DNA of 23,309 nucleotides from a virus. The translations under genes and the position numbers were made by a program. The stretch's first letter is position 1; every line of letters starts with the position of its first letter. The notes beneath the pieces are model-generated. The model was not told the origin of the DNA. It worked only from the letters and a program-made list of their open reading frames with translations, and ran no database searches. Below, piece after piece: positions 2,845-22,152 of the stretch. Where the stretch lies: positions 1 through 23,309 of the IMG/VR virus record IMGVR_UViG_3300049491_000348. The stretch is one strand, 5' to 3'.

Positions 2845-2880
2845 GCCCCCTGGCCATTCACATAAGCCATTCGGCGACTG

Positions 2881-2916
2881 GCGCCCCCTGGGTAACCCTG
2901 GGGGGCGCTTTGTTGT
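2881..2916 (+). terminator. Intrinsic terminator before portal
   Basis: GCGCCCCC (2881-2888) pairs with GGGGGCGC (2901-2908), extendable through two G-U pairs and followed by TTTGTTGT. The loop side contains GGGTAACCC (2890-2898), the same motif as at the repressor operators. It separates the terminase/zinc-protein group from the portal operon. Confidence 0.75.
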
Positions 2917-2941
2917 CTCCTGAGCGTTACCCTTTGTGCCT

Positions 2942-4252
2942 ATGGACCCTGTGCAGCGCCCCAGTGGCATCCTGGTGCCCTACAGCAGGACCATGGGGCG
3001 CCCAGACCCCCAAAGCCTGCCCCCCCGTAGTGACGTGACCCCTAATGCCAATACGCCTGTTGGCACTGTCGGCCCGGCGCCCACTGCAGATAACGCAGGC
3101 TTTGGGGCACAGCATGTGATGTATCCAGCCAATGACCCACCACTGGAGGCCAGCGCCTGGGCTGGCTGGCCAGTGGAATGGCCCACCCCCAACACATCCC
3201 AGATGGGTGGGCGCTGGGCCTCAGACCTAGATATCGTTTTCGCCTGCATTGACCTGAACGCGCGCATTACGGCTGATATGCCCATGACTGTCACCAAAGC
3301 CAGGCAGCGCCTGACAGCGCCCAGCTGGGTGAGCAATCCTCAGCCCCTGGTGTATTCCCACATGGGGGAGTTTGTCAGCCAGGTCTGGTGGAGCTACCAG
3401 GCCATAGGTGAGGCCTTCATTGTGGCCACGTCACGCTTTGCTGACACTGGCTATCCGCGCACCTTCATGATGATGGACCCCGCTTACGTGGGGGTAGAGA
3501 TAGATGGGGGCCTGCGTAGGTACTTCATCGGGGGCACTGAGGCCACAGAGGACATGCTGCACATCAGGTACCGCAGCTGGCCCAGCGATGCGCACGGACA
3601 TGGCCCCCTAGAGGTGGCTGGCGAAAGGGTGTTAGCTGCAAAGACTTTCATGCGCTACGCCTCAGACCTGGCCCAGAATGGTGGCGTCCCATGGGCTGTC
3701 CTGAAGGCTAAATATCGGCTGGGCAGCAAACAGGCGCAGGACCTGAAAACGCAGTGGATTAACAGCGCGCGTAACCGCATGGGCGCCCCCGCCATCATTG
3801 ACTCAGAGACTGACCTGCAGGTGCTGCAGGTGCCACCCAAAGACATGGCCCTGTCTGAGCTGCAGTCATTCACTGAGGCGCGCATTGCCATGCTGCTGGG
3901 GGTGCCTGCCTACCTGATGTCGCTGCCATCAGGCGCTGATGCCATGACCTATAGCAACGTGAACAGCCTGTTTGACTATCACTGGCGCGCAACGCTTCGC
4001 CCCGGTATCCGCTCTATCTCCAGGGCCATCAGTCAGTGGGCCTTGCCTGCTGGCACTGAGCTGGAGGTTGACCCCTACAGCTACATTCAGCCAGGGCCAG
4101 CTGAGCGCGCTGGGTACTACCAGACGATGGTGGGCCTGGGCGCCATGACTGTGGATGAAGTCAGGGCCAGTGAGCGCCTGTCCCCACTGGACAGCCCCAA
4201 CACACCAGCAGCCACCGACCCAGGGGAGGCATTCAGCAATGCAGGGCTCTAA
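2942..4252 (+). CDS. Portal protein (HK97-type)
   Basis: 436 aa from ATG 2942; an in-frame GTG at 2936 would add two residues. Portal proteins form the dodecameric DNA channel at one capsid vertex. Typical features visible are a proline-rich N-terminus, the FACIDLNARITADMPMTV segment, ASDLAQNGGVPWAVL, the clip/stem-like region KTQWINSARNR, and TEARIAMLLGVPAYL...YSNV, which matches the conserved C-terminal half of HK97-like portals. There is no Shine-Dalgarno. TACCCT at 2928-2933 could be a -10 for a near-leaderless transcript, and GCGTTACCC overlaps it. The gene overlaps the protease by 14 bases. Confidence 0.92.
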   Translation: MDPVQRPSGILVPYSRTMGRPDPQSLPPRSDVTPNANTPVGTVGPAPTADNAGFGAQHVMYPANDPPLEASAWAGWPVEWPTPNTSQMGGRWASDLDIVFACIDLNARITADMPMTVTKARQRLTAPSWVSNPQPLVYSHMGEFVSQVWWSYQAIGEAFIVATSRFADTGYPRTFMMMDPAYVGVEIDGGLRRYFIGGTEATEDMLHIRYRSWPSDAHGHGPLEVAGERVLAAKTFMRYASDLAQNGGVPWAVLKAKYRLGSKQAQDLKTQWINSARNRMGAPAIIDSETDLQVLQVPPKDMALSELQSFTEARIAMLLGVPAYLMSLPSGADAMTYSNVNSLFDYHWRATLRPGIRSISRAISQWALPAGTELEVDPYSYIQPGPAERAGYYQTMVGLGAMTVDEVRASERLSPLDSPNTPAATDPGEAFSNAGL

Positions 4253-4886
4253 CGAGATGCATTACCGCGCATGGCCAGTGGACCTGGAGCTGCGCGAGGC
4301 TGAAGGTGATGGCCTCACTGTCACTGGCATTGTGGTGCCCTATGGGGTGGAGGCTGAGATAGAGGAGCTGCGCCCATCTGGCGTCATCCGATATCGAGAA
4401 GCCTTCGCCCCTGGGGCTTTTGCGCGTGCCATGCGCGCCCCCAACAGGGTCAGCCTGACCTATAACCATGATACGGCGATGGGTAACCGCATGGGCTTTG
4501 GGCGCAGCTTCCAGGAGTCCAGTGAGGGGCTGGTGGGGACCTTCAGGCTGGATGCCTCCTCAGCCGACAAAGCCAGGGACATCCTGGAGTCCAGTCATGC
4601 TGGCTTCTCTGTTGGCTTCTATTCCCTGGTGCCCAGGGCTGGCAGTGAGCGCCCGGACAGCCTGGTCACCAGGCGTAGCGCCATCCTGGATCATGTGGCA
4701 GCCGTCGTGCAGGGCGCCTATAAAGGCGCTGGGGTGGCCAGTATTCGGGGCGCTGACCTAGACCTGGGTGAGCCCACAGTGGCTGACCTGGAGGCAGAGG
4801 CGCAGACGCGCCAGGATGCTGACCTACTGGCCTGGATTGATGACGCTGCAGCGGAACAGGCGCGCTGGGACGCTCTACACAGCTGA
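4239..4886 (+). CDS. Prohead maturation protease (HK97 U35-like)
   Basis: Serine protease that trims capsid and scaffold during head maturation. Start at ATG 4239 because GGGGAGG lies nine bases upstream; the frame extends further 5' only inside the portal gene. With this start it is 215 aa. The fold markers are VVPYGV near residue 33, YREAFAPGAF at 52-61, catalytic His in YNHDTAMGN (H77) and catalytic Ser in SSHAGFSVGF (S124). No separate scaffold gene is seen; as in HK97, the N-terminal coil of the capsid protein may supply that function. Confidence 0.92.
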   Translation: MQGSNEMHYRAWPVDLELREAEGDGLTVTGIVVPYGVEAEIEELRPSGVIRYREAFAPGAFARAMRAPNRVSLTYNHDTAMGNRMGFGRSFQESSEGLVGTFRLDASSADKARDILESSHAGFSVGFYSLVPRAGSERPDSLVTRRSAILDHVAAVVQGAYKGAGVASIRGADLDLGEPTVADLEAEAQTRQDADLLAWIDDAAAEQARWDALHS

Positions 4887-4887
4887 T

Positions 4888-5004
4888 GTGCCTGATGCCC
4901 TATGGGCGCTGGCCTGGGCCTGGTGGCGCCGATGGCGGAAACGCTACGGGCGCCATTCTGAGGCACACACAAAGCGCAGGAGGAGACACAAACATGAGGA
5001 ATAG
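4888..5004 (+). CDS. Possible 38-aa Arg/His-rich peptide
   Basis: A GTG two bases after the protease stop opens a short frame. It starts with a tryptophan-rich hydrophobic patch (LWALAWAWWRRW) and ends in a run of Arg, His and Lys. Strong basic character and coupling distance suggest a real peptide, perhaps nucleic-acid- or membrane-binding. There is no Shine-Dalgarno, and an incidental frame in GC-rich DNA cannot be excluded. Confidence 0.35.
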   Translation: MPDALWALAWAWWRRWRKRYGRHSEAHTKRRRRHKHEE

Positions 5005-5085
5005 GGCTACCCTCTAGCCCAGATAACGGCACCCCAGGAGCAGGCACCCCAGGCAGCTGGCAGCCCTGTGAATGACTGGCCCCCC

Positions 5086-5108
5086 GTAGATGGAATACCC
5101 ACATCTAC
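5086..5108 (+). promoter_or_regulatory. Hairpin just upstream of capsid ribosome site
   Basis: GTAGATG (5086-5092) and CATCTAC (5102-5108) form a 7-bp perfect stem with a 9-base loop. AGGAGG begins right after the stem. In the 230-base gap between protease and capsid this is the only clear structure. It may protect the capsid mRNA 5' end or keep the ribosome site exposed. Confidence 0.5.
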
Positions 5109-5120
5109 AGGAGGACCAGA

Positions 5121-6401
5121 ATGACCATGGATGCAATCTCATCCAAACTGATCCAGGAGCGCCAGGCCCTGGTGCATCGCGCTGAAGGGGTGAAGCAGAC
5201 AGCTTTTGAGGACAACGGGCGAGACCTGAACGAGTCAGAGCGCCAGTCCCTGGGCAACTTCCAACAGCGCATCAAAGCCATTGATGAGCAGTTGACCCTG
5301 ACCACAACGGATTACGCGCTGAACGCTGAGACTGCTGCGCGCATTGCCCAGTACGCAGGCGCCCAGGCCATCCCCAATGATGGCTACCAGTACCGCACTG
5401 CTGGTGAGGTGCTGTTTGATGTCATCCACCAGGGCAGCGACAGGGACGCGCGTGAGCGCTTCCAGTCCGTAATGCGCGCCCAGACGCGCGCAGCTGAGCA
5501 CATGGGCACCACAGCTGAAGTGACAGTGCCCACCGCTGGTGGGATGCCTGGGCTGGTAGTGCGACCCATCCAGGGGCCAGTCATTGACCTGGCCTGGGGT
5601 GGCATGCCCCTTTTCCAGGCGCTCAACCCACAGCCTGCGACTAACCCTCTCGGCTGGTCGCGCCCCCGCATTGTTGACCCCTACCTGGACACGGCTGCAG
5701 GGCCTCAGGCTGGCGGCAAAGAGAAGGCTGAACTGCCCAGCAAGCATTTTGAGGTGAAGGCTGACAATGTTGACCTGACCACCCTGGGCAACTACCTCAA
5801 TGTGTCCATTCAGCTGGAGTCCTTCATTGCTGGCAGCCTTGACATCATCATCAGTCAGCTGAATAAGCGCCTCAGCCGTGGCCTGGAGCATGCTGCAGTG
5901 GCTGAGTTGGCAAAGGCCACAAAGACAATCACTCTCGCTGCTGATGCCACCTCCACTGAAGTCCTCAATGCCATCTACCAGGGCGCGGCTGCTGTGTTCA
6001 GCGCTACCCAGGCCCTGCCCTCCTGGCTGGCCATGGGGCCACTGGGCTGGGCGCGCATGGGTGGAGTCAGTGACCTGGCTGGGCGCCCCCTGTTCCCAAC
6101 GCTCAACCCAACCAACGCAGCAGGCACTCAGTCCGTTGGCAGCTTTGATGGTGGGGTGGCTGGTATCCGTACCATCATCACCCCCGGAATCACTGACACC
6201 ACAATGTATCTGGGCAATGGTGAAGGCATTGAGGCTGCTGTGTATAGGTTCCCAATGCTGCAGGCCATTGAGCCCAGCGTGTTGGGGCGCCAGGTGGCAG
6301 TAGCTGCCTCCTATGGCTTCTATCGCCCACCGACAACTGAAGCTGACCCCAGTGGCACCCCTGCAGCGTTGCATGAGGCCATTGTCAAGATTGCACCCTG
6401 A
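5121..6401 (+). CDS. Major capsid protein (HK97 fold)
   Basis: 426 aa, with a strong AGGAGG seven bases before the ATG. The first roughly 75 residues are charged and helical (LIQERQALVHRAEGV, SLGNFQQRIKAIDEQL), like the HK97 delta/scaffold domain removed by the protease. The body follows the usual order with a spine-helix-like region and a P-domain (NQLNKRL-type helix ISQLNKRLSRGLEHA), then WLAMGPLGWARM and AVYRFPMLQAIEPSVLGRQ near the C-terminus. Position after portal and protease makes the assignment firm. It ends three bases before the next gene. Confidence 0.93.
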   Translation: MTMDAISSKLIQERQALVHRAEGVKQTAFEDNGRDLNESERQSLGNFQQRIKAIDEQLTLTTTDYALNAETAARIAQYAGAQAIPNDGYQYRTAGEVLFDVIHQGSDRDARERFQSVMRAQTRAAEHMGTTAEVTVPTAGGMPGLVVRPIQGPVIDLAWGGMPLFQALNPQPATNPLGWSRPRIVDPYLDTAAGPQAGGKEKAELPSKHFEVKADNVDLTTLGNYLNVSIQLESFIAGSLDIIISQLNKRLSRGLEHAAVAELAKATKTITLAADATSTEVLNAIYQGAAAVFSATQALPSWLAMGPLGWARMGGVSDLAGRPLFPTLNPTNAAGTQSVGSFDGGVAGIRTIITPGITDTTMYLGNGEGIEAAVYRFPMLQAIEPSVLGRQVAVAASYGFYRPPTTEADPSGTPAALHEAIVKIAP

Positions 6402-6404
6402 GCC

Positions 6405-6698
6405 ATGGGCTACTTTGACCAGTCCTACCCACCCAGCATCTACGCGCCCCCCGTGATCCCAGCCACGGGGGCCACCGCTGGTATCCCTGGGACCTGGACC
6501 CCTGCAGGCAGCACCCCACCAGCAGACCTGGCCACCCTGCAGGGGTCTGGCATTGTGGCCACCCCACAGACCGGCTGGACATCAGGCCAGTACGTCCAGA
6601 CAGCCACTGCTGGCGCCGCTGGGCGCGCCACCTGGACAGGGACTGACTGGGTGGGGGGCGCAGCCCCATTGGCTGCCAAGAGGAGCGCGCAGGCATGA
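6405..6698 (+). CDS. Small decoration-like protein
   Basis: 97 aa. After a short tyrosine/proline-rich N-terminus the protein is one compact domain: ATGATAGIPGTWTPAGS, ADLATLQ, GWTSGQYVQT, then RATWTGTDWVGGAAP. The same domain forms the C-terminus of the major tail protein encoded at 7455. Similar stretches occur in actinophage head and tail proteins, where an immunoglobulin-like or decoration role is suspected. Here it follows the capsid gene directly, so a head-decoration or head-completion role is the best guess. The stop overlaps the next start (ATGA). Confidence 0.75.
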   Translation: MGYFDQSYPPSIYAPPVIPATGATAGIPGTWTPAGSTPPADLATLQGSGIVATPQTGWTSGQYVQTATAGAAGRATWTGTDWVGGAAPLAAKRSAQA

Positions 6699-7069
6699 GC
6701 ACTAACCCGCTGCCCTGGGATGGTGACCCCACATTCATTGTGGAGGAGGCGCGCAAAATTCTGCGCCTCGCTGCTGATGACCCTGACCTGGATAGGTTGG
6801 GGCGCCTGGCCTTTGTCGTCATGGAGCTGGTGCGCCAGCAGCTGGATGCTGAGGTGCCCTATGACGATCCAGCAGCAGCACCCATCCCAGACCCCATCAC
6901 CGATGCCTGTATCACTGCGCTGGTGGAGCAATACAGACGCAAGGATGCGCCGTTCGGCATCACAGGCGCCTGGTCGGCTGATGGGGTGGCCATGCGGGTG
7001 AGCAAGGACTGGCTAGACCCTGTGCTGTTTGCCCTGCAGCCCTACAAAAGTCGCTGGGGGGTGGCCTGA
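6695..7069 (+). CDS. Head-tail connector (gp6/adaptor-like)
   Basis: 124 aa, ATGA-coupled to the gene before. It is mainly helical: EEARKILRLAADDPDLDRLGRLAFVVMELVRQQLD, then ITDACITALVEQYRRKDAPFG. An all-helical protein of this size directly after the capsid region is typical of the adaptor that docks beneath the portal. The C-terminal WLDPVLFALQPYKSRWG resembles actinophage connector tails. Identity rests on gene order plus this pattern. Confidence 0.7.
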   Translation: MSTNPLPWDGDPTFIVEEARKILRLAADDPDLDRLGRLAFVVMELVRQQLDAEVPYDDPAAAPIPDPITDACITALVEQYRRKDAPFGITGAWSADGVAMRVSKDWLDPVLFALQPYKSRWGVA

Positions 7070-7070
7070 G

Positions 7071-7451
7071 ATGTCTGCCCCAGCAACGACTACCCCAGTC
7101 ATCCTGAGCGCACTGGCGCCCATCCTGCAGGCGCTGGAGGCTGTAGGCATCAGGGTCTACTCAGACCCAAAGGACATCAACCCACCCTGCGCCTACCTGG
7201 CCCCCCCCACCCTGCGCTTCAGCTTTGGCAAGGGTGGCTATGAGGCTGATCAGACCCTGTTGCTTTGCAGCAGCAACACTGTCAAGCGCGCGCAATATGA
7301 GGAGCTGTCAGACCTGATGGCGCGCAGTCAGTCTGCCCTGGGTTACCGAATGGTGACAGCCAGGCCAGCCGATATCTGGACTGCTGACCAGACAGCAGTG
7401 CTGGCAGCATATGAACTCACCTGGACCGATACCGTTCGAATGAGAGGCTAA
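7071..7451 (+). CDS. Tail terminator / neck protein
   Basis: 126 aa from ATG 7071, two bases after the previous stop, with a G-rich ribosome site. The sequence has an N-terminal helix (ILSALAPILQALEAVGIRVYSDP), a proline-containing turn, then beta strands and a central helix. This is the usual pattern of the tail-completion/terminator fold that caps the tail tube under the connector. Its position just before the major tail protein supports this. The gene contains one copy of GGGTTACC (7340-7347). Confidence 0.65.
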   Translation: MSAPATTTPVILSALAPILQALEAVGIRVYSDPKDINPPCAYLAPPTLRFSFGKGGYEADQTLLLCSSNTVKRAQYEELSDLMARSQSALGYRMVTARPADIWTADQTAVLAAYELTWTDTVRMRG

Positions 7452-7454
7452 CCC

Positions 7455-8114
7455 GTGACTACCCCTGTCAATTCAGACAACGAGAAGTTTGGCCCAGGCA
7501 CGCTGAAGATTGGCGCCACTGGGTCCGAAATTGATGCCAGCTGCTATGTCAATGGGCTGCGCATCACTGCCACCGCTGATAGAGGCGACAGCAAGACAAT
7601 GCTGTGTGGCACAACGAAAGCGGGCTCTGTCAGGTACGACTATGAGATGACAGGCAACCTGGACCTGGACCTAAACTCAGGCGCTGATGGGCTTTTCGCC
7701 CTCTCGCAAGAGTCCCCAGGCAGCACCCAGGCCTTTGAGTTCATCCCCAACACTGCTGGGGGCACCAGCGCCTCAGGGCAATTAGTGTTGGACCCCATGG
7801 ACTTTGGCGCTGACGAGTATGGCGCCATCATGGCCTCTGACGTGACCTGGACCCTGGTGGGGCAGCCCACCTACGTCTATGGCACCCCAGCAGCCGTGGC
7901 CATCAGTGGTGTTACGGCTGGCAGCCCTGGCAGCTTCCAGCCCAGCAACGCGCCCATCCCAGCCAACCTGGCAGCACTGAAGGCTGATGCAGTCGTTGGG
8001 GATGCAGGCACCAATAAGCCTGTGGCTGCCTGGACCAGTGGCCAGTCTGTGGTGCTGGGTACGGGGTCGGCGCACTGGGATGGGACAGCCTGGCTGACTG
8101 GTGCTGCTGCCTGA
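7455..8114 (+). CDS. Major tail (tube) protein with C-terminal decoration domain
   Basis: 219 aa, GTG start preceded by GAGAGG. Residues 1-145 are a beta-rich tube domain (FGPGTLKIGATGSEIDASCY, then a region ending MASDVTWTLVGQPTYVYG). Residues 146-219 form an add-on domain (VTAGSPGSFQPSNAPIPANL, AAWTSGQSVVLG, AHWDGTAWLTGAAA) closely resembling the whole protein encoded at 6405. Such add-on domains project from the tail surface in other siphoviruses. The stop overlaps the next start (TGATG). Confidence 0.85.
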   Translation: MTTPVNSDNEKFGPGTLKIGATGSEIDASCYVNGLRITATADRGDSKTMLCGTTKAGSVRYDYEMTGNLDLDLNSGADGLFALSQESPGSTQAFEFIPNTAGGTSASGQLVLDPMDFGADEYGAIMASDVTWTLVGQPTYVYGTPAAVAISGVTAGSPGSFQPSNAPIPANLAALKADAVVGDAGTNKPVAAWTSGQSVVLGTGSAHWDGTAWLTGAAA

Positions 8115-8476
8115 TGGCTGGTGGGGTGAAGGTGGAGGTTAAGGGCGCTGAGCGACTGTCCAGCACCCTTAACGCCGCTGCCTCAATGCTTCTCGACCAG
8201 ACCCCAGCCAACAGGGCTGCTGGTGAGGAGCTGATGCGCACAGCGATGGGCAAGGCCCCCAGGCGCACAGGGCGCCTGGCTGGGTCCATCACTGTGCTGG
8301 GCGCTGACAGGGTTGAGCTGCAGGTGGGCAGCAACCTGCGATATGCCAGCTTCCAGAACTACGGCACCAGGCACAACAGGCCTACCTATTTCCTGACAGG
8401 GGCACTGGATGCACTGACCACAGACGCCTACGTGGCGTATGCAGATGAAGTCATGGGCACAGTCAAAGGGGCATAA
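8114..8476 (+). CDS. HK97 gp10-like neck/tail completion protein
   Basis: 120 aa, overlapping the tail-tube stop by one base. It matches the HK97 gp10 family by the conserved run AMGKAPRRTGRLAGSI followed by a beta region and YASFQNYGTRHNRPTYFL. Members sit at the head-tail joint or help complete the tail. Usually this gene precedes the tail tube; here it follows it. Confidence 0.82.
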   Translation: MAGGVKVEVKGAERLSSTLNAAASMLLDQTPANRAAGEELMRTAMGKAPRRTGRLAGSITVLGADRVELQVGSNLRYASFQNYGTRHNRPTYFLTGALDALTTDAYVAYADEVMGTVKGA

Positions 8477-8479
8477 GCA

Positions 8480-8770
8480 ATGAAGCAGATGGTTATTCAG
8501 ATCATGATGGCCAATGGTGACGCCTGGGAAGTCAGGACCACTACGGGCGATTACGTGGCGTATGACGACACTGGTAAGCGCCAGCGCCCCCAGTGGGGGC
8601 CTATGAGTGAAAACGTGGCGCGCTGGGAGGCGTTCCTGGCCTGGCATGCCTCCAGGCGCCTGGGGCTCTATGACAAGCCCTGGGAGTCATTCCTGGACGA
8701 CTGCGTGAGCGCTGATGGGCAGCCTGTGGACATGGACCCTACCGTGAGGGCTCCTGGGGTCACTGGCTAG
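8480..8770 (+). CDS. Tail assembly chaperone, short form
   Basis: 96 aa (0-frame product), lambda gpG-equivalent by position and size between the tail tube and the tape measure. The sequence is mixed alpha/beta with WEVRTTTGDYVAYDDTGK, then ENVARWEAFLAWHASRRLGL. Chaperones of this class bind the tape measure and recruit tail-tube subunits, and are absent from the finished virion. The last ten codons read past the presumed slip site to a TAG stop. Confidence 0.82.
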   Translation: MKQMVIQIMMANGDAWEVRTTTGDYVAYDDTGKRQRPQWGPMSENVARWEAFLAWHASRRLGLYDKPWESFLDDCVSADGQPVDMDPTVRAPGVTG

Positions 8771-8901
8771 TAGAGCTGTCACTGGCCACCCAGATGCCAG
8801 TGACAGTGCTGCTGCAGCAGGATGATTCAGTGCTGGCCACCATCGTTGACATCTACGAGAAGCGCGCAGCATCCACCAGGAAACAGCGCAGGAGGGCATA
8901 G
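8480..8901 (+). CDS. Tail assembly chaperone, frameshifted G-T form
   Basis: The -1 frame is open from 8716 to the TAG at 8899-8901 and has no usable start near its beginning. It encodes YREGSWGHWLVELS, then ATQMPVTVLLQQ and DDSVLATIVDIYEKRA plus a basic tail, the usual content of the T-like extension in actinophages. If the ribosome slips at C-CCT (8737-8740), the fusion is 140 aa: 87 from the 0 frame plus 53 from the -1 frame. The extension ends three bases before the tape measure start. Confidence 0.75.
8737..8742 (+). other. Candidate -1 slip site
   Basis: CCCTAC. In the 0 frame CCT is read at 8738-8740; slipping back one base re-pairs the proline tRNA on CCC and places TAC in the A site, joining ...DMDP to YREGSW. 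It is not a classical X-XXY-YYZ heptamer, so the exact slip point is inferred. Confidence 0.4.
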
Positions 8902-8904
8902 GCA

Positions 8905-11691
8905 ATGGCACGCTCAGCAAGCCTGTCTATCAGGGTCCTGGTGGATGCTGCCCAGGGCGCCAGTGAGCTGCGCGGGCTGGGTGACTCAGCAGCCACCACA
9001 GGTGATCAGTTTAAGCAGATGCTGGGCGCTGCAGCAGCTTTCGCTGGGGTGACAGCCTTTATTAAGTCAGCCGTTAGTGCAGCATCAGACCTGCAGCAGT
9101 CCACTGGTGGGGTAGAGGCTGTGTTCAAAAACAGCGCCTCAGCAGTCAAGAACTTTGCCAGTGGGGCTGCACAGTCGTTGGGGCTCAGCAAGTCTGCCTA
9201 TCAGGAGCTGGCCACTGTCATTGGGTCGCAGCTCAAAAACGCTGGCACCAGCATGGAGGAGCTGGCCCCTAAGACAAACAGCCTCATTGAGAAGGGCGCA
9301 GACCTGGCTGCCATGTTCGGTGGCACCACAGCTGAGGCTGTGGGGGCGCTGTCCTCAGCGCTGAAGGGTGAGCGTGATCCCATTGAGCGCTATGGCGTTT
9401 CGCTGAACCAGGCAGCCATTGATGCTGAGATTATGGCTAAGGGGATGGACACCAGCACCAACGCCGCTAAGGCTGCTGCCACCCAACAGGCCACCCTTAA
9501 CCTGATCATGAAACAGACAGCGGACAGCCAGGGTGCGGCTGCGCGCGAGGCTGACAGCTACGCCAGTGTGATGCAGCAGCTGAGCGCCATCTGGGAGAAC
9601 ACCATTGCTGAGGTGGGCGCTGAGTTGCTGCCTGCCCTGTCCAGCCTGGTGGGCACCCTGGGTGACCTGGCCCCCGTGGCTGCAGCCATCCTGGGGCCAC
9701 TGGCTGAGTTCGCTGGCTGGGTGCTGCAGCTGCCTGCCCCCATCCTGGCTGTGGCTGCTGGCATTGCCCTGTGGAAGTTCAGCCCCCTGAGTTCAATGCT
9801 GGGCAAGCTGAGCACTGCCCTGTCCTCTGCCACAGGGTCAGCCTCAGGCTTTGCCACAGCAGCCAAGAGCATTGGCAGCGCACTGGCTGGGGGTGCCATC
9901 CTGGGTGGCGCCATGATCATTATTGGCCAGATTGCCAGCGCCTACGCAGATGCCAAAGCCAGGGCTGAGGAGTTCCAGTCTGTGGTCAGCACTCTGGGTG
10001 ATGAGCTGGTGCGCACGGGGGGCAAGGCCACTGATGCCTTCTCAGAACTCCAGCGCGGCACCATGGAGAACACCACAGCCTTTAAGGCCCTGACCAGTGC
10101 TGGCATCAGCTACGGGGATGCCATGAACTTCTTCACCGACCAAAGCAAGCTGAGCAGTGATGCTGTGGATGCCATCACAGCTGCCCTGGGCGAGATGGAC
10201 CCAGCCACCATTAAGTCTGCCCTGGACATGACCAAGAGTGGGGAGGCTGCCAGCAAGTATGCCCAGGAGAAAATGGCGTTCCTGGCAGCTGAACAGCTGG
10301 CCACGGGGGCCACTGAGGACAACTCAGCAGCCACAGCAGAGGCAGCAGCAGCCCAGGCCAAAGCTGCTGCAGAGCAACAGAAGGCAGCAGAGGCAGCAGC
10401 GAAACAGGCTGCAGCACAGACCCAGGTATCGGTGGCCCTGGACACTGTGAAGGCCAGCACTGATGCAGCCTCACGCGCCCTGGACTTTTTCACCCTGGCC
10501 ATGGATAAGGCTGCAGGGCGCCAGGTGTCAGTGGAGCAGGCAAGCCTGGCTGTGCAGTCAGGGCTGGCTGATGTCAGCAAGGCCTTTGCTGATGCCACCA
10601 CTGCTGGCACGTTCAATGCTGACCAGCTGGCAGCCTGGGACTATGCGGCACTGCAGGCCACTGACTCAGGCAGGGCTGTCTACTCATCCCTGAGCACAAT
10701 GCGCACAGGCTATGACCAGGCCACCACTGCTGCCTATAGCCAGGCTGTGGCCAACGGGGACGCAGCAGGCGCCATGGATGCTGCCAGGTACGCAGCCTCA
10801 TTGGCTTATGGGGAGTTCATCACCATGGCCCAGGGCGCTGGCCTCAGTGCCACCCAGGCCCAGGAGCTGGCAGCCAAGCTGGGCATAGTCGAGGGCACCC
10901 AGATTAACGAGAAGACCTTCAGTGTCATCGCTGAGGATGCCCAGGCCCAGGCAGCCCTGCTGGCCGCTCAGGGCGCAGTCATTGACCCAAAGTCCTTTGA
11001 TGTCAGCGCTAATCCCAAAGAGGCCCAGTCCACCATTGGCAGCCTGGTGGGCCAGTCCCTGAAGAACACCCTGGCACTGTCGGCTGACCCAAAGGCAGCT
11101 CAAAGCACCATCAATGGGGTAGTGAACGAGAAGCGCACCACTACCCCTGTCAGGGTCGTTGCTGACCCATCCCAGGCCAACAGCACCATCAATGGGTTCA
11201 CCCAGACGCAACGCTCCACCCAGGTGGAGGTGACAGCCAATGCCACCAGTGCCCTGCAGACCATTGGCAACGTCACTAATGGGCGATGGAATGCCACAGT
11301 GACAGTGGGGGCTGACACTGGCCCTGCCCTGTCCGCCATCAGCAGAGTCGAAGGGGGCAGTTATTCGGCCACCATCGTTGTCTCAGCCAACACAGCTGGG
11401 GCGCGCGCAGCTATCGCAGCTGTGCCCACCAGTGTCAGTGTCGCGCCAGCACCCCCAGCTGGACTGATGGCCATGGGCGCCACAGCCTTTGGCGCCCCCA
11501 CCTTCACCCCAGCTGCGCCACCCCCCTTGCATGGCATCAGCGCGCGCAGCGAGGCCCCCAGTCAGTCAGTGACCTACGAAATTAACGTGAGCAACACCCT
11601 GGACAGTGCAGACACCATCGCGCGCAGGGTGCTGGACGTTATCGAGAAGCGCGAGAGGCGCATTTATGGCATCAGGGTGCAGGCACGATGA
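8905..11691 (+). CDS. Tape measure protein
   Basis: 928 aa, AGGAGGG ribosome site. This protein sets tail length and is ejected at infection. It has an N-terminal helical scaffold-like region (ASDLQQSTGGVEAVFKNSAS, GGTTAEAVGALSSALKGE) and hydrophobic segments near residues 258-292 and 326-348 that could span a membrane. An Ala/Gln/Lys coiled coil follows near 470-512, and a repeat-rich beta tail from about residue 700. By the family rule of roughly 1.5 angstrom per residue the tail would be near 140 nm. It overlaps the next gene by four bases (ATGA). Confidence 0.93.
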   Translation: MARSASLSIRVLVDAAQGASELRGLGDSAATTGDQFKQMLGAAAAFAGVTAFIKSAVSAASDLQQSTGGVEAVFKNSASAVKNFASGAAQSLGLSKSAYQELATVIGSQLKNAGTSMEELAPKTNSLIEKGADLAAMFGGTTAEAVGALSSALKGERDPIERYGVSLNQAAIDAEIMAKGMDTSTNAAKAAATQQATLNLIMKQTADSQGAAAREADSYASVMQQLSAIWENTIAEVGAELLPALSSLVGTLGDLAPVAAAILGPLAEFAGWVLQLPAPILAVAAGIALWKFSPLSSMLGKLSTALSSATGSASGFATAAKSIGSALAGGAILGGAMIIIGQIASAYADAKARAEEFQSVVSTLGDELVRTGGKATDAFSELQRGTMENTTAFKALTSAGISYGDAMNFFTDQSKLSSDAVDAITAALGEMDPATIKSALDMTKSGEAASKYAQEKMAFLAAEQLATGATEDNSAATAEAAAAQAKAAAEQQKAAEAAAKQAAAQTQVSVALDTVKASTDAASRALDFFTLAMDKAAGRQVSVEQASLAVQSGLADVSKAFADATTAGTFNADQLAAWDYAALQATDSGRAVYSSLSTMRTGYDQATTAAYSQAVANGDAAGAMDAARYAASLAYGEFITMAQGAGLSATQAQELAAKLGIVEGTQINEKTFSVIAEDAQAQAALLAAQGAVIDPKSFDVSANPKEAQSTIGSLVGQSLKNTLALSADPKAAQSTINGVVNEKRTTTPVRVVADPSQANSTINGFTQTQRSTQVEVTANATSALQTIGNVTNGRWNATVTVGADTGPALSAISRVEGGSYSATIVVSANTAGARAAIAAVPTSVSVAPAPPAGLMAMGATAFGAPTFTPAAPPPLHGISARSEAPSQSVTYEINVSNTLDSADTIARRVLDVIEKRERRIYGIRVQAR
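11000..11450 (+). repeat. Tandem ~25-aa repeats in the tape measure C-terminus
   Basis: About six degenerate units begin SANPKEAQSTIGS, SADPKAAQSTINGV, ADPSQANSTINGF, ANATSALQTIGNV, GADTGPALSAISRV and SANTAGARAAIAAV. Each is followed by a short beta strand such as TTPVRVV, TQVEVT or ATVTV. The alternation suggests a repeating helix-strand unit. Confidence 0.7.
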
Positions 11692-13631
11692 CCCAGCCTG
11701 ACTGGCTGCCACCGCCGATGCTGCCCCCATCGGTCAGTGTCTGGTCGGCTGGTGTGCAGCTCTCTGATGGGCGAGATGGGGGCAGCCCGCTGAGTCCCAT
11801 GGTGCTCAGCGGGCTGCGCGTCACCTGGGGCAGGGCAACCATTCTCGACCAGCCACCCCCCAGCACCTGTGACCTATCCATGGTGGATGTGTTGGGGGGT
11901 GAGGCGTTCCTGGATGTGGTGGGCATTGGGCGCAGCCTGGAGGTACGCGCGGACAGCATCACCTACCCAGACCCTGGCGCTGGTGGGTCCACTGTCGTTA
12001 TCAATCTGACGATGGACTCCATGCCGGTGGCCATGATCCTGAGCAACGCAGCTGCTGCCATCACCGGTGGGCAGCTGGTCCTGCGCCCAGTGGACAGCAC
12101 TAGGGCTGTGGTGGCCACCTTCACCCCTGGCACCCCTGTGCCAGTGGGGGGCAACCCTGCAGCCTGGGACGCCATACCCAGGGCAGCAGCAGGGCAGAGC
12201 TGGCTGGCTGCAATGGATGTGGCGCTGCCTGCCATGTTCGCTGGCTACTCAGGGTGGCGCGCTGAGGTGGTGCCTGTGTCCTTCACTGCGCCCTGGGCGC
12301 CAGGCACTGCGCAGCCCCCAGCACTGCCCATCACCGGTGGCACCACGCACTCAGGCACCTACCCACCCACCCCAGGCACCTGGCAGGGGGTGCGCGTCAC
12401 CATCTGGCCAACAGGCCCAGCCTGGCAGGAGCTGAACACCAGCACCTGGGACAGCCTGGCAGCTATCCCCACCTGGGATGCGCTATCCACATTCACTGTG
12501 GATAACGTGAAGCTGACAGCCCCCCCAGCTGGCACCCAGCGCAGTGCCCTGGTGTTCAGTGGGCGCATCACTGACATGGAGGCGCGCTTTGACAGTGACA
12601 GTGGCGCAACGCTTATTGACATCACAGCGCAGGACCAGCGCGCTGAGTTGGCCAACAGGGATGTAGGTGATGTGCCCTGGCTGGCTGAGCGCCTGGACGC
12701 CAGGGTGGCGCGCATCATCACCTCCTCAGGGCAGGCCATTGGCTACCGCATAGATACCTCCATGCAAGCCCTGGGGGTGTCCTGGCGCGATATCGACAGG
12801 CAAGGCGCCCTAACCCTTCTCCAGGAGATGGCCATATCGGGTGATGGGGTGCTGTGGGCTGCAGCATCTCTGACGACAGGCCCCTATCTGGACTTTGAAT
12901 CACTAGGTGAGCGCCCAGCCCTGTCAGGCCTCACCCAGGGCGCTGACTCCATCGTTGTCATCGGCCCGATTACCAGCGTGCCTGGCAGCGTGGCCCTGGA
13001 TGCCTGCAGCCTCAGCCGTGAACCCGTGCGCTGGATACAGGATGTGGCTGATGTGTCCACCAGGGTTGCTGTCACCTGGCGTGAACAGACCCTGAACGAC
13101 AAAGGCCAGCCAGCCCCTACTGACAGGGTGGCCACTGCCTCAGATGCTGCACTGGAGGACATCGTTGGCACCAGGCGTATAGCCATCAGCACCCAGCTGT
13201 CAGGCAGCAGTGACGCAGTGACCCTGGCCAACAGCACCCTAGGGCGCACCAGTACCCCAGGGTGGCGCCTGGCAGGGCTGCACTGGGAGGCAGAGACAGA
13301 CGCGCCCATGGACAGCGCTGCACTGGGTCGCATGATGACGCTCCTGGATGGCACCACGCGCAACGGCTGCCCTGTTGTCATCACCAATCTGCCAGCCTGG
13401 TCACCCATCGTGGGCAGAACAGACATCCCCCTGTTTGTGGAGGGGGGCACCTACACCAGCCAGGATGGCGCCTGGGTGCTGGACCTGACTACCAGCGCCC
13501 CCACAGCAGCTGGGCGCAGTGCAGCCTGGCAGGACTTCCCCAGCACCCCCCACCCAGTCACAGCCTGGCGCTGGCAGGACATGGCGCCATCAATCCGCTG
13601 GCTGGACCTATCGGGCACAGCCGTTACATGA
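11688..13631 (+). CDS. Large minor tail protein (distal tail / tail-tip)
   Basis: 647 aa, ATGA-coupled to the tape measure. It is beta-rich with many tryptophans. The segment LVFSGRITDMEARFDSDSG followed by IDITAQDQRAELANRDVGD is a hallmark of actinophage minor tail proteins that combine distal-tail and baseplate-hub roles. The C-terminal part (PIVGRTDIPLFVEGGTYTS, then WVLDLTTSAP) looks like a further beta domain. Normally two or three genes share these jobs; here one gene seems to cover them. No enzymatic motif is evident. Confidence 0.8.
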   Translation: MTQPDWLPPPMLPPSVSVWSAGVQLSDGRDGGSPLSPMVLSGLRVTWGRATILDQPPPSTCDLSMVDVLGGEAFLDVVGIGRSLEVRADSITYPDPGAGGSTVVINLTMDSMPVAMILSNAAAAITGGQLVLRPVDSTRAVVATFTPGTPVPVGGNPAAWDAIPRAAAGQSWLAAMDVALPAMFAGYSGWRAEVVPVSFTAPWAPGTAQPPALPITGGTTHSGTYPPTPGTWQGVRVTIWPTGPAWQELNTSTWDSLAAIPTWDALSTFTVDNVKLTAPPAGTQRSALVFSGRITDMEARFDSDSGATLIDITAQDQRAELANRDVGDVPWLAERLDARVARIITSSGQAIGYRIDTSMQALGVSWRDIDRQGALTLLQEMAISGDGVLWAAASLTTGPYLDFESLGERPALSGLTQGADSIVVIGPITSVPGSVALDACSLSREPVRWIQDVADVSTRVAVTWREQTLNDKGQPAPTDRVATASDAALEDIVGTRRIAISTQLSGSSDAVTLANSTLGRTSTPGWRLAGLHWEAETDAPMDSAALGRMMTLLDGTTRNGCPVVITNLPAWSPIVGRTDIPLFVEGGTYTSQDGAWVLDLTTSAPTAAGRSAAWQDFPSTPHPVTAWRWQDMAPSIRWLDLSGTAVT

Positions 13632-13652
13632 GCAACAGGAGAGGCTAGGAAC

Positions 13653-14042
13653 ATGCCAGCGAACACATCCAGCGGGCTGCCATATCCGCTACCCAGTGAG
13701 CCAGTCAGGGATGGGGCTGATGCCATCAAGAACCTGGCCAATGAGCTGACATTCAGACAGAACGTATCGACAGCTGTAGGGCCATCCTTTGCCTACACGC
13801 GGTATTCAGTCACAACCAATGCGTCTGGCTATTTCGCTACTAGTAAGCCAACGAACATGAAGCTACTGCGAGGCGCCATCCTGGCAGCTGAAACAGCCAA
13901 TTACATGTACCTGGCCCACGTGACCCTGCTACCCAATGCCTCAGGGGGGCTGGATGGTGTGCTGATCCGTGCCGATACCGGGCTGCAGGTGCCGACAACA
14001 GCGTTCATGCTCAACATCATGCAATGGGGGGACCGGCTCTGA
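13653..14042 (+). CDS. Short receptor-binding/minor tail protein
   Basis: 129 aa, ribosome site AGGAGAGG. The N-terminus SGLPYPLPSEPVRDGADAIK followed by NLA is typical of the virion-attachment end of actinophage fibre or receptor-binding proteins. The remainder is a single small beta domain (FAYTRYSVTTNASGYFATS, then YMYLAHVTLLPNASGG). There is no collagen-like shaft or long fibre, so host contact may rely on this small domain plus the large minor tail protein. Confidence 0.7.
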   Translation: MPANTSSGLPYPLPSEPVRDGADAIKNLANELTFRQNVSTAVGPSFAYTRYSVTTNASGYFATSKPTNMKLLRGAILAAETANYMYLAHVTLLPNASGGLDGVLIRADTGLQVPTTAFMLNIMQWGDRL

Positions 14043-14197
14043 TGGATAACGACTCCTGCCAGACGGCAGACTGCGAAATGCTCAACATCCCCATCAGTGG
14101 CCTGGAGGCCATCCCTGCTGAGTTCCTGCCCCCCATCTGTGGCGTATGTGGCCACCCCCTGGGGGCACCTGAAGTGGAAGGACCAGCCAGTGCCTGA
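14042..14197 (+). CDS. 51-aa zinc-ribbon mini-protein
   Basis: ATG overlaps the previous stop (TGATG). Cysteines occur in DSCQTADCEML and in PPICGVCGHPLGAPE; the second CxxC-GHP unit looks like half a zinc ribbon. Function unknown. It overlaps the next gene by eight bases, so it belongs to the same translational unit. Confidence 0.55.
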   Translation: MDNDSCQTADCEMLNIPISGLEAIPAEFLPPICGVCGHPLGAPEVEGPASA

Positions 14198-14348
14198 CAT
14201 CATCCCCACCAGGCGTGAGCCCAGGGGGGACTTCCCCACCCACGATGACGCCAGGGCAGCCCTGCGCCGTGTCCGTACCGCTGAGGATGCAGCCCTGATA
14301 GCCAGGCTGCGCCTGCTGCTGTGGAGGGCGCGCCATGGCCAGCGGTAA
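14190..14348 (+). CDS. 52-aa small basic helical protein
   Basis: GTG start with AGGA a few bases upstream, inside the end of the preceding mini-gene. The product starts PDIIPTRREPRGDFPTHDDA and ends in an amphipathic, arginine-rich helix (LIARLRLLLWRARHGQR). It is not recognised as a known family. Its place directly before the lysin could hint at a lysis helper, but the helix is too charged for a classical holin. Confidence 0.5.
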   Translation: MPDIIPTRREPRGDFPTHDDARAALRRVRTAEDAALIARLRLLLWRARHGQR

Positions 14349-14979
14349 CAGCTATAACGGCTGGCCAGCGAACAGCGACAAAAACGCAATAGGCATAGTG
14401 CCCTTTGGTGACCCCCAGGGGCTGCCATTCCCTGGAGGGGTGAAGTCTGGGGATGTGTTCACAGTCCTGGGCTACGTGGCCATTCAATTCAATGCCAGGG
14501 TTGAGCCCATCGTTTCAGGGTGGGACTGGGGCTACACCTACAAAGCCAACGTGAATAACCCCTCTAGCCTGTCCTGCCATGCCAGCGGCACAGCCCTGGA
14601 CATTAACGCGCCAGATCACCCCAATGGGTCCGGGGGCACCTTCACTGATGCCCAGGTTGGCACCATCTACGCCATTCTGGATGAAGTCCAGGGCGCTGTT
14701 GACTGGCTAGAAGGCTATGACGAAATGCATTTTGAAATATGCGTGAGCGCCAGCACCCTGGCGCGCGTTGCTGCCAGCTTGCCCACCAATGGAGGAGGAG
14801 CCCCCGATATGCCACTCAATGATGACGATATCGAGAAGATACGCAGGGTGATTGATGAGCGGATTAACGCGCATTTCGGCGCAGGTGCCGTGTCTGATCC
14901 TGGCGCAGCCCTCAACAGTGGAGTCAGCCCCAGGATGCACCTGGACAGGCAGGCTGACCTGGCAGCAGACCCTGGCTGA
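14335..14979 (+). CDS. Endolysin, M15-family peptidase
   Basis: 214 aa, overlapping the gene before by 14 bases. M15 (VanY/L-Ala-D-Glu type) peptidases are zinc enzymes that cut peptidoglycan stem peptides. The zinc ligands are visible: SLSCHASGTALDIN gives H82 and D89, and EGYDEMHFEI gives the D129-x-x-H132 pair. The N-terminal NGWPANSDKNAIGI is usual for phage M15 lysins. The C-terminal 55 residues contain a short charged helix (LNDDDIEKIRRVIDERINAH) and no recognised cell-wall-binding repeats. No multi-span holin is adjacent. Confidence 0.88.
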   Translation: MASGNSYNGWPANSDKNAIGIVPFGDPQGLPFPGGVKSGDVFTVLGYVAIQFNARVEPIVSGWDWGYTYKANVNNPSSLSCHASGTALDINAPDHPNGSGGTFTDAQVGTIYAILDEVQGAVDWLEGYDEMHFEICVSASTLARVAASLPTNGGGAPDMPLNDDDIEKIRRVIDERINAHFGAGAVSDPGAALNSGVSPRMHLDRQADLAADPG

Positions 14980-15061
14980 GGCGCCTGCGCTCAACGTCTG
15001 TCGTGAGTGACCTGTGGGTTACCGCAGGCCTTTGCCTACTGATGTTTGGTAGGCTGAGTGT
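14980..15061. other. Lysin-integrase intergenic region with two hairpins; possible attP
   Basis: CCTGTGG-GTTA-CCGCAGG (15011-15028) is a 7-bp hairpin that could end late transcription. Its loop region includes GGGTTACCGCA, identical to the sequence at the Cro-like start. A second inverted repeat, GCCTAC-N9-GTAGGC, spans 15034-15054. Serine integrase attP sites often lie beside the integrase and have imperfect dyad symmetry, so attP may be here; this is not proven. Confidence 0.4.
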
Positions 15062-15069
15062 ATGGACAC
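15058..15069 (+). promoter_or_regulatory. GTGTATGGACAC operator on the integrase start codon
   Basis: Exact copy of the 12-mer at 22154-22165 and of the complement at 1549-1560. The integrase ATG is at its fifth base. A repressor bound here would block initiation of integrase expression. TAGGCT at 15050-15055, six bases before the ATG, could be a -10 for a leaderless mRNA. Confidence 0.6.
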
Positions 15070-16459
15070 ACACACACAGCCAGTCGCAGTCATCTACGTT
15101 CGCCAGTCCGAAGACAGGGACCTGGATGAAAACGCAGTACGTAGGCAGCTAGAGGCTGCCCAGACGCTTTGCGCCAGTAGGGGTATCACTGTCGCTCACA
15201 CCATCATTGAGAATGACACCAGCGCCACTGCAGACAGGCCCAGGCCTGACTATCAGCGCCTAGTGGCCATGATCAGAGGGCGCCAGGTGGACTACATCAT
15301 CACCCCTACTGCTGAGCGCCTGATGCGCAAGCTGGTGGACCTAGAGGAGATGATTGACTTAGTGGAGGCGCACAGCGTCACCATCATTGCGCTGGCTGGA
15401 CAGCTGGACCTGAGCACCCCCAATGGGCGCCTCCTGGCGCGCATCCTGGTCAGCGTTGCGCGTAATGAGATAGAGGTGAAGGTGGCGCGCCAGCGCAGCA
15501 AAAACGCACAGCTGGTGGCTGATGGCCTGCCCACTAAGGGAGGCCCCAGGACCCCTGGCTATGAGGCAGGCCTAATGACGATTAGGGAGGCTGAGGCGCA
15601 GCACATTCGCTGGGGCTTCTCAGCCATCGTTAATGGCCAGCCCCTGCGCACAGTCTGGCGTGAGTGGAATGAGAAGGGCTTTACTAACCGCAGTGGCAAT
15701 AAGTGGACAGTGGCCAACGTGCGCAAGCTGCTAATGAATCCTCGCTACGCAGCCCTAAGCGTCATCCATTCCACTAGCGGTAATCGCTCAGGGATGGTGC
15801 CTGGCCAGTGGCCAGCCATCGTCACCCCTGATGTCTGGCATGCCACCCAGGCCATTCTGAATGACCCAGCGCGCAGGATGACACCCAAAGGCAAGGGTGG
15901 CACCAGGCTGTATCTGCTATCAGGCCTTGCGCGCTGTTTTTGCGGCGCCCTGGTGATGGCTGGCAGGAATAACCACAACGCGCGCAGCTATCGCTGCTCA
16001 GAGCGCCCAGGGCACATGGCCAGGGTCGCTGAGCCCATTGATGCCTACGTACTGGCCACGGTGGCACAGCGACTGCGTGAGAAGGATGCCGGGGGCGCCA
16101 TCACTCCAGCTGGTCAGGCTGTGGACCACGGGGCGCTCAGGGATGAGCGCGCTGCCCTGCGTGTCAGGCTGGATGAGCTGGTGGACCTGCGCGCCGATGG
16201 GGACATCAGCAAGGAACAGCTACAGCGTGGCACTGCGCGCATCACAGTGCGCCTGGAGGCCATCAGGGTGGAGCTGGAGCGAGATGCCCTACTGGCGCCC
16301 CTGCTGGGCCAGGTGGACCCTGGGAAGGCTTTTCTGGAGCTGACCGACCTGGACCAGCGCAGGGCTGTTATCGCGCGACTGGCGCCCAGCATTATCCTGC
16401 GCAGCCCAGGCAGGGGGGCGCGTAAGTTTGACCCAGCCTCAGTGGAGGTATTGCGCTAG
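15062..16459 (+). CDS. int: Large serine integrase
   Basis: 465 aa site-specific recombinase that would integrate the phage at attB. The N-terminal resolvase domain has VIYVRQSEDRD with the catalytic serine at S16, DYIITPTAERLMRKLVDLEE and an NGRLLARILVSVARNEIEVK helix. The recombinase domain follows (RTPGYEAG, WNEKGFTNRSGNKWTVANVR, LMNPRYAALSV), then a zinc ribbon with CFCG (C292, C294) and SYRCSERPGH, a coiled coil and a C-terminal helical end. This is at the short end of the usual range for large serine integrases. No excision factor is recognised next to it. Confidence 0.93.
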   Translation: MDTHTQPVAVIYVRQSEDRDLDENAVRRQLEAAQTLCASRGITVAHTIIENDTSATADRPRPDYQRLVAMIRGRQVDYIITPTAERLMRKLVDLEEMIDLVEAHSVTIIALAGQLDLSTPNGRLLARILVSVARNEIEVKVARQRSKNAQLVADGLPTKGGPRTPGYEAGLMTIREAEAQHIRWGFSAIVNGQPLRTVWREWNEKGFTNRSGNKWTVANVRKLLMNPRYAALSVIHSTSGNRSGMVPGQWPAIVTPDVWHATQAILNDPARRMTPKGKGGTRLYLLSGLARCFCGALVMAGRNNHNARSYRCSERPGHMARVAEPIDAYVLATVAQRLREKDAGGAITPAGQAVDHGALRDERAALRVRLDELVDLRADGDISKEQLQRGTARITVRLEAIRVELERDALLAPLLGQVDPGKAFLELTDLDQRRAVIARLAPSIILRSPGRGARKFDPASVEVLR

Positions 16460-16472
16460 GCCCAGATAAACC

Positions 16473-16507
16473 AAAGGGGCGCCCCCAATACGGGGCGCCC
16501 CTTTTTT
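16473..16507. terminator. Bidirectional terminator between integrase and repressor
   Basis: AAAGGGGCGCCCC (16473-16485) pairs with GGGGCGCCCCTTT (16492-16504) across a 6-base loop, followed by TTTTTT ending at 16507 on the + strand. The A-run on the left gives a short U tract for leftward transcripts. It separates the convergent integrase and repressor genes and is the strongest terminator in the window. Confidence 0.92.
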
Positions 16508-16520
16508 GTTGCCTGTGACA

Positions 16521-16892
16521 TTAGTGGGAAAGCTTTTCCAAAGCTTCTAGCGCTCCATCCAGCTCAACAGACATGCGCGTTAGCTCTCTGCGTACCCTGC
16601 GCAAAGTCTCCAGGGGCGCCTCTGGGCCTGTCGGTATCGGCACCTCCATAGAGAAGCGCCTGAGGTAGCCATTGGTGGGCGCCTCCTCCTGCTCTATCAG
16701 CTGCCCTTGCACGTTTAGCTCCAGGACCTGGGCCAGGCGTCCCAGGCTTAGGGGGCTGATGCTGCCTGTCCGCTCCCACATGCCTACTGACTTCTTAGTG
16801 CTGCCCATCTGCTCTGCTAGCTGCGTCTGGGTCCAGCCCTTAGCTACTCGCGCCTCCCTGATGCGCGCCCCCAACAGCGTTGCTGTGGTCAC
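16521..16892 (-). CDS. XRE-family repressor (probable immunity repressor)
   Basis: 123 aa, GTG start with an AGGAGG six bases upstream. Residues 8-60 form an XRE helix-turn-helix (IREARVAKGWTQTQLAEQMG, then STKKSVGMWER as recognition helix region). The C-terminal half is helical and charged (LRRVRRELTRMSVELDGALE), likely for oligomerisation. There is no LexA-like peptidase domain, so RecA-stimulated cleavage is unlikely. It is transcribed away from the Cro-like gene, the classic switch layout, and is one of only two leftward genes in the window. Confidence 0.82.
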   Translation of the reverse strand: MTTATLLGARIREARVAKGWTQTQLAEQMGSTKKSVGMWERTGSISPLSLGRLAQVLELNVQGQLIEQEEAPTNGYLRRFSMEVPIPTGPEAPLETLRRVRRELTRMSVELDGALEALEKLSH

Positions 16893-16946
16893 TGTCTGCC
16901 TCCTGTGGTAGTGCGTCCCCTCATGACGCTTAAAGCCTCATAGTGC

Positions 16947-16966
16947 CAGGAACGGACAGGAACGGC
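16947..16966. repeat. Tandem 10-bp repeat in the divergent operator region
   Basis: CAGGAACGGA followed directly by CAGGAACGGC. The one-helical-turn spacing suggests two contacts on one DNA face, for the repressor, the Cro-like protein or an unknown factor. It is about 55 bp upstream of the repressor start. Confidence 0.6.
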
Positions 16967-16968
16967 AC

Positions 16969-16981
16969 CCAGGTAACCTGG
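16969..16981. promoter_or_regulatory. Putative operator 1 (CCAGGTAACCTGG)
   Basis: Thirteen-base dyad centred on GGTAACC, between the divergent repressor and Cro-like genes. It shares the GGTWACC core with sites at 2891, 15017 and 17060. Confidence 0.6.
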
Positions 16982-16991
16982 CGTGTCTCAC

Positions 16992-17003
16992 CTGGGGTTA
17001 CAG
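16992..17003. promoter_or_regulatory. Putative operator 2 (CTGGGGTTACAG)
   Basis: Partial match to the same motif with outer CTG/CAG symmetry. A further half-match on the opposite strand (CAGGGGTAAT) lies just downstream at about 17005-17014. Confidence 0.5.
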
Positions 17004-17056
17004 AATTACCCCTGTGTATCTCCGTTCGGTGCCTATGCGTTGCTGTGAGTTCACCC

Positions 17057-17068
17057 TAGGGTTACCGC
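17057..17068. promoter_or_regulatory. Putative operator 3 / -10 at the Cro-like start
   Basis: TAGGGTTACCGC abuts the ATG at 17069. TAGGGT could be a -10 with transcription starting at the ATG, and GGGTTACC (17059-17066) is the operator core. An AGGG could alternatively serve as a ribosome site. Binding here would shut the early rightward operon. Confidence 0.55.
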
Positions 17069-17329
17069 ATGCCAACACAGAGACACGCCAGGCTGTGGCT
17101 AGTAGGCCCAGCCGTCAGGGCCATCAGGGAGGCCAGGGGCATTACCAATGAGCAGTTTGCGCGGGATGTGGGTATCTCTCACGCGCATCTATCCAGGATC
17201 GAACTAGCAGGCAGGCAGCCCTCCACAGCCGTCATGGTGGCCATTGCGGACAGGCTGGCGCTGCCAGTGGATGCCATCACAGTGGACCTGGGCCAGCTCG
17301 AGAAGCTGCGCGCAGGCGTAGTGGCATGA
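17069..17329 (+). CDS. Cro-like XRE helix-turn-helix protein
   Basis: 86 aa, first gene of the rightward early operon and divergent from the repressor. The XRE domain covers most of the protein: AVRAIREARGITNEQFARDV, then GISHAHLSRIELAGRQPS and AVMVAIADRLALPVDAI. In lambdoid logic it would act as Cro or an early regulator; in other actinophages a protein here can be an excisionase-like factor, but the fold seen is XRE rather than MerR. Its stop overlaps the next start (ATGA). Confidence 0.82.
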   Translation: MPTQRHARLWLVGPAVRAIREARGITNEQFARDVGISHAHLSRIELAGRQPSTAVMVAIADRLALPVDAITVDLGQLEKLRAGVVA

Positions 17330-22111: not shown

Positions 22112-22118
22112 CCATTCA

Positions 22119-22130: not shown

Positions 22131-22152
22131 TGCCAGATGCCAGGCTTGCGCG

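Follow-up and report, generated by a model that had tools for sequence, protein, structure and literature searches.

The stoperators of L5-type phages are described as 20-30 sites of 13-14 bp, asymmetric without dyad and oriented with transcription, in phages that have no divergent CI/Cro pair (PMC6550527, PMC9283540). The 23,309-nt stretch of viral DNA analysed here (IMG/VR record IMGVR_UViG_3300049491_000348, positions 1 to 23,309; hereafter the window) makes up part of the genome of a small temperate phage with an ordinary divergent repressor/Cro (Rep/Cro) switch, and we infer that its host was probably an actinobacterium. A first-pass annotation had proposed that the word GGTWACC marks in this window a single family of operators, with copies in coding DNA perhaps being stoperators of the L5 kind. 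The window does resemble the cluster A mycobacteriophages L5 and Bxb1 in its actinophage-like genome and its short repeated sites, and an extended word, GGGTWACCGMA, runs in one orientation at four of four places, although this pattern was chosen afterwards and two of its copies are coding. In contrast, the window holds seven copies of GGTWACC, or four of the extended word, in 23.3 kb of a record that may be incomplete; the 7-bp core is palindromic and only the 11-mer subset is asymmetric; a divergent Rep/Cro-like pair is present where L5 lacks the Cro gene; and there is no sign in the window of a two-domain monomeric repressor of the L5 type. The assignment to L5-type stoperators is thus unsupported on three counts: how many sites there are, their symmetry, and the layout of the switch.

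Comparison with two other described systems shows both likenesses and disparities. The operators of phage lambda are 17-bp and inverted. Like the lambda switch, the window has divergent HTH_3 (helix-turn-helix) repressor and Cro-like genes that share a gap, here of 176 bp, with repeated words; unlike in lambda, the wider family has direct repeats at a 10-bp spacing, and the cro start is predicted to be leaderless. As with the Arc-like phage repressors, a small protein matching PHROG 6506 has palindromes ahead of its gene, but here matching sites also stand at the integrase start and after the terminase gene. From comparisons at the sequence level we consider it fairly probable that GGTWACC is not one family, that Rep and the Cro-like protein bind 10-bp direct repeats, and that the Arc-like protein binds the palindrome GTGTATGGACAC.

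Enrichment of GGTWACC and the origin of its copies

All seven copies of GGTWACC listed in the first-pass annotation are present (2891, 4482, 7341, 15017, 16972, 17060, and 20613), against a mean of 0.95 in shuffled sequence, and none of 100 shuffles held seven or more. By our provisional gene map about 1.2 kb (5%) of the window is non-coding, and this small fraction holds four of the seven copies where 0.1 would be expected, an outcome not reached in any of 2000 simulations. Because GGTWACC had been picked after reading the sequence, it was also compared with the most extreme word of each simulated non-coding set, all words being considered. In this look-elsewhere test GGTAACC (k = 7; four non-coding places) had a p value equalled by 1% of null sets, and GGGTTACC (k = 8; three non-coding places) one equalled by 3%; words of the GTCCATAC type and AGGCCACT were stronger, with 0 of 200 null sets. 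A cruder test that counted different gaps gave no signal, with GGGTTACC in three gaps and some 8-mer in at least three gaps in 106 of 200 null sets. The proposed enrichment in the few percent of intergenic DNA is therefore nominally real, but it is not overwhelming.

The individual sites bear out the earlier description in part. The sequence GGGTTACCGCA is indeed identical at 15016 and 17059. A near match described at 16992 exists as GGGTTACAGAA, but it occupies 16995..17005 (+ strand), 16992 being the start of the longer CTGGGGTTACA. The 16972 copy reads AGGTAACCT, so it belongs to GGTWACC yet not to the GGGTWACC family that had been named. As one operator or stoperator family, GGTWACC is not well supported, because a terminator loop accounts for the copy at 2891, the one at 17060 runs into a conserved -10 box, and those at 4482 and 7341 follow the protein; what stands of the single-family proposal is a possible operator near Rep/Cro. 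Only the copies at 15017 and 16972 are without another explanation.

The copy at 2891 forms the stem tip and loop of an intrinsic terminator upstream of the portal gene (2880..2909, + strand), in which a G+C-rich stem of 13 pairs is followed by a T run in the tail TTTGTTGT; the computed RNA fold has an energy of -35.2 kcal/mol (z -5.36). Portal and head regions were compared with those of nine phage relatives (L008-L016), of which L008 is the closest. Five of these (L009, L011, L014, L015, and L016) keep the terminator hairpin before the portal gene with a different loop, L008 keeps GGTAACC, and L010, L012, and L013 have a different arrangement at this place. L014 carries GTGTCATGACA(C/G) twice directly before its portal terminator (2756-2796), which is absent at that place in the window. 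Downstream of the terminator, a predicted -10 box, TACCCT (2928..2933, + strand), lies 8 nt before the portal ATG at 2942 and suggests a candidate leaderless promoter; TACCCT or TACGCT precedes the portal gene in all six aligned phages.

The number of coding copies is near chance, as the first-pass annotation had allowed, and the alternative that it raised, that they are stoperators, is not supported. In the prohead protease gene (4482..4488, + strand; codons M-G-N-R-M-G), L008 encodes the same residues with other codons and lacks the DNA word, and other relatives encode different residues. In a head-tail gene (7341..7347, + strand; codons L-G-Y-R-M), L008 keeps both word and residues, and L009, L010, L011, L013, L014, L015, and L016 keep neither. 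At both places conservation tracks the encoded residues and not the nucleotide word. The copy in a gene with a RecT match (20613..20619, + strand) is probably protein-coding text too.

The Rep/Cro switch

Rep (16521..16892, - strand; 123 residues; PF01381, E 6.7e-10) and the Cro-like protein (17069..17329, + strand; 86 residues; PF01381, E 2.1e-12) are HTH regulators encoded divergently on either side of a short gap. Scans of viral contigs with Rep, Cro or integrase as single proteins found no relatives, nor did searches of a phage collection with the DNA of 14980-17700 and with Rep. Two related switches, L057 and L058, were instead reached through capsid relatives (capsids 81 and 83% related) whose records were then read further; both have a homologous integrase, Rep (40 and 38% identity, respectively), and Cro-like protein (53 and 60%). 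A Cro profile search added six loci as outgroups (L061-L066; four in viral contigs and two in genomes of Sphaerisporangium and Cellulosimicrobium), with a Rep match divergent beside cro at six of six, so that the layout is the same at all eight loci. No Rep/Cro match was found in L069, a distant phage reached through RusA relatives, and solved-structure matches to Rep and Cro were weak and uninformative on operators.

The best candidate for a Rep/Cro operator is a direct repeat of CAGGAACGG, present at 16947 and again 10 bp away at 16957 (16947..16965, - strand). The rep-cro gaps of L061-L066, which are actinobacterial prophage switches, contain arrays of TTKCC words at exact 10-bp and 23-bp spacings, often as 10-bp pairs. 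Each has 7-8 such words in 215 bp, where 1.1-1.3 are expected, a count reached in none of 500 shuffles for each locus. When direct-repeat spacing was scored from near-identical 7-mers over seven rep-cro gaps (L061 and L066 were omitted as near copies of L065), 10 bp scored 40 and the next spacing, 23 bp, scored 26, against a null maximum of 24; none of 300 null sets reached the 10-bp score. The score of the CAGGAACGG pair in the window was reached by 6 of 1000 shuffles, and of 526 overlapping tiles of the window only four, all over the rep-cro gap, reach it. Because the 10-bp spacing recurs across the rep-cro gaps of the wider family, direct repeats rather than GGTWACC are the likelier, though unproven, first choice as Rep/Cro operators.

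The 16972 copy of GGTWACC sits at the center of a perfect 13-bp palindrome, CCAGGTAACCTGG (16969..16981), a possible second operator; the non-coding DNA of the window has further perfect palindromes, 13 and 17 bp long. A 16-nt direct repeat is present at 16991/17055. Operator function at sites near Rep/Cro is possible, since this is a true divergent switch region and contains the 13-bp perfect palindrome. The 17060 copy (GGTTACC) overlaps TAGGGT (17057..17062, + strand), a predicted -10 box lying 6 nt ahead of the ATG of the Cro-like gene. A TANNNT box, centered 7-12 bp before a transcription start at the start codon, marks a leaderless promoter of a kind common in Mycobacterium tuberculosis (PMC3898074). 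In eight of nine family members a TANNNT word precedes the cro ATG by 6-8 nt, the exception being L058 with GAGGGT, and predicted promoters with TANNNT also precede three other genes of the window, those for portal, integrase, and the ribbon-helix-helix protein. Related Cro genes keep the -10 box without GGTWACC, and no GGTWACC was found in the rep-cro gaps of L057 and L058.

Taken together, these features suggest a scheme in which Rep and the Cro-like protein would most likely bind CAGGAACGG at 16947/16957, perhaps joined by weaker G-T-T words at 17029, 17039, and 17049. The 17060 copy would be explained by the edge of the -10 box of cro, and the 16972 copy may be an extra operator.

An Arc-like protein and its palindromes

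A 66-residue protein encoded on the - strand (21911..22111; ATG at 22111) matches the Arc-like repressors of PHROG 6506 (E 3.2e-7 for the longer open reading frame, 21911-22165; 1.3e-8 for the protein of L057), with Pfam matches below cut-off, and we assign it a ribbon-helix-helix domain. Homologs are present in L057 (47%) and L016 (45%). The 12-bp palindrome GTGTATGGACAC has three exact copies, at 1549, 15058, and 22154, and two with one mismatch, at 1509 and 22119. Allowing up to two mismatches gives eight matches against 1.83 expected, a number seen in 0 of 100 shuffles; the two-mismatch matches at 5802, 9441, and 20955 are not claimed as sites. The word GTCCATACAC is found four times in non-coding DNA (p 3.8e-12), and 0 of 200 null sets had a word as extreme.

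Two sites lie upstream of the ribbon-helix-helix gene itself. One (22119..22130, - strand; one mismatch) covers its predicted -10 box, TACACT, and a like palindrome covers TACACT at the same place in L016 and L057, making three of three phages with the window. The second (22154..22165, - strand) is exact; its counterpart in L016 is GTGTCAATACAC, located 45 bp upstream of the first site in that phage. At the end of the terminase gene, GTGTATTGACAC (1509..1520, + strand; one mismatch) spans the stop codon and is partly coding (V-Y-stop), with a like palindrome at this place in L009 and L016, and an exact GTGTATGGACAC follows (1549..1560, - strand), where L009 (1541) and L014 (1534) have TGTATGGACA. 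An exact copy also holds the integrase start codon (15058..15069, + strand), where L057 has GTGTCATGACAC. Like palindromes are present upstream of the portal gene in L014 and L009. Across four phage records, 15 of 15 matches to a loose form of the palindrome were non-coding or straddled a gene end, as judged by eye.

The site set is proposed because of exact repetition, place, and conservation, and not because of raw counts, and these make GTGTATGGACAC a likelier dispersed operator family than GGTWACC. The Arc-like protein would most likely bind GTGTATGGACAC, repressing its own gene and the integrase gene by covering a -10 box or a leaderless start, and it may also act on the genes after terminase.

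The integrase upstream region

The DNA before the integrase gene holds GGGTTACCGCA (15016..15026, + strand), whose function is unexplained and which is absent upstream of the integrase gene in L057 and L058. It is followed by an inverted repeat, GCCTAC-N9-GTAGGC (15034..15054, + strand), that was read directly from the sequence and overlaps the predicted -10 box TAGGCT (15050..15055, + strand), 6 nt before the integrase ATG at 15062; the L057 integrase gene has TAGACT 7 nt before its ATG. A 13-mer, GGGTTACCGCAGG, before the terminase gene of L012 matches the window at 15016, but was given no weight since it is absent in L014, L016, and the short upstream stretches of L009 and the window. A scan with GGGTTACCGCATGCC matched 10 viral contigs, by a rough estimate no more than chance. 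Between the convergent integrase and repressor genes lies a strong hairpin with a T-rich tail (16473-16504, + strand), also called on the - strand and possibly bidirectional. In L057 (358-1785 in reverse-complement coordinates) the integrase gene is instead downstream of rep on the same strand.

Sets of sites that differ between relatives

Directly after a conserved gene (21147-21491), the window carries three palindromes of the form AGGCCA(C/T)TGAGTGGCCT (21485-21564), and L016 has three alike. L057 has AGGTACCTGAGGTACCT three times at this place. The triple palindrome resembles a set of iterons or operators whose members have changed together. The Arc-like set differs similarly: the window has GTGTATGGACAC, and the integrase and portal sites of L014 and L057 read GTGTCATGACAC. 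We propose only tentatively that in this group of small phages palindromic control-site sets change in concert between relatives, with regulators and sites co-evolving as separate specificities within one small genome.

Alternative explanations

Several observations weigh against reading GGTWACC as a word of mixed origin with the direct repeats and GTGTATGGACAC as the operators. The enrichment of GGTWACC survives the look-elsewhere correction (1-3%), and separate causes account for it only in part. The window has one clear 10-bp pair, whose score is reached by 98 of 1000 shuffles if any spacing is allowed; the 10-bp repeat of L057 is weaker (AGGACAC twice; 46 of 1000 shuffles), and the signal in L058 is a 5-bp simple repeat that should be discounted. 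The loose palindrome is not above shuffles genome-wide (5 in the window versus 2.5), the integrase gene of L058 lacks the ribbon-helix-helix palindrome, and none of six distant ribbon-helix-helix relatives (L122-L127) has it within 180 bp upstream.

In one alternative, the GGTWACC sites at 16972, 16996 (the near match), 17060, and 15017 would be the true dimer-bound Rep/Cro operator. In the lysogen they would shut off integrase and also cro, the latter through occlusion of its -10 box, and the words of relatives would differ through repressor divergence. We regard this as possible but rather unlikely. It would account for the non-coding enrichment and for the copy on the cro -10 box, it would give meaning to the 13-bp palindrome at 16969 and the 16-nt repeat at 16991/17055, and with Rep only 38-40% identical to its relatives some operator turnover is to be expected. 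The rep-cro gaps of L057 and L058 and the integrase region of L057, however, are without GGTWACC, the architecture of the family favors 10-bp direct repeats, and AGGGT is kept at the cro start without the remainder of the motif. The unexplained copy at 15017 could also be part of an attachment site beside the serine integrase rather than an operator, as only 45 bp separate it from the integrase start downstream, and attP is often found in such a position. No att site was identified, in an analysis where integrated prophages with this integrase were not searched for, and we think this explanation unlikely. That GGTWACC is an L5-like stoperator set halting elongation across the genome is very improbable: the four GGGTWACCGMA sites, all on the + strand, exceed the 0.01 expected for a pattern chosen after the sites had been seen, but 4-7 sites are not 20-30, the core and the divergent Cro gene do not match, and the coding copies track codons, the 4482 copy being absent from the closest relative and the 7341 copy from more distant ones.

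Conclusions

The preferred reading gives the GGTWACC copies separate origins: the copy at 2891 belongs to a terminator loop, the one at 17060 lies at the edge of the -10 box of cro, those at 4482, 7341, and probably 20613 are codons, and those at 15017 and 16972 are left unexplained. The whole looks like ordinary phage regulation, with no hint of a novel type of system. A real enrichment of a short word can be a blend of terminator, promoter edge, and coding sequence, which comparison with relatives tells apart. For this uncultured phage group the analysis provides concrete operator predictions, 10-bp direct repeats for Rep and Cro and GTGTATGGACAC for the Arc-like protein, and it suggests that the Arc-like protein may control integrase via a leaderless start.

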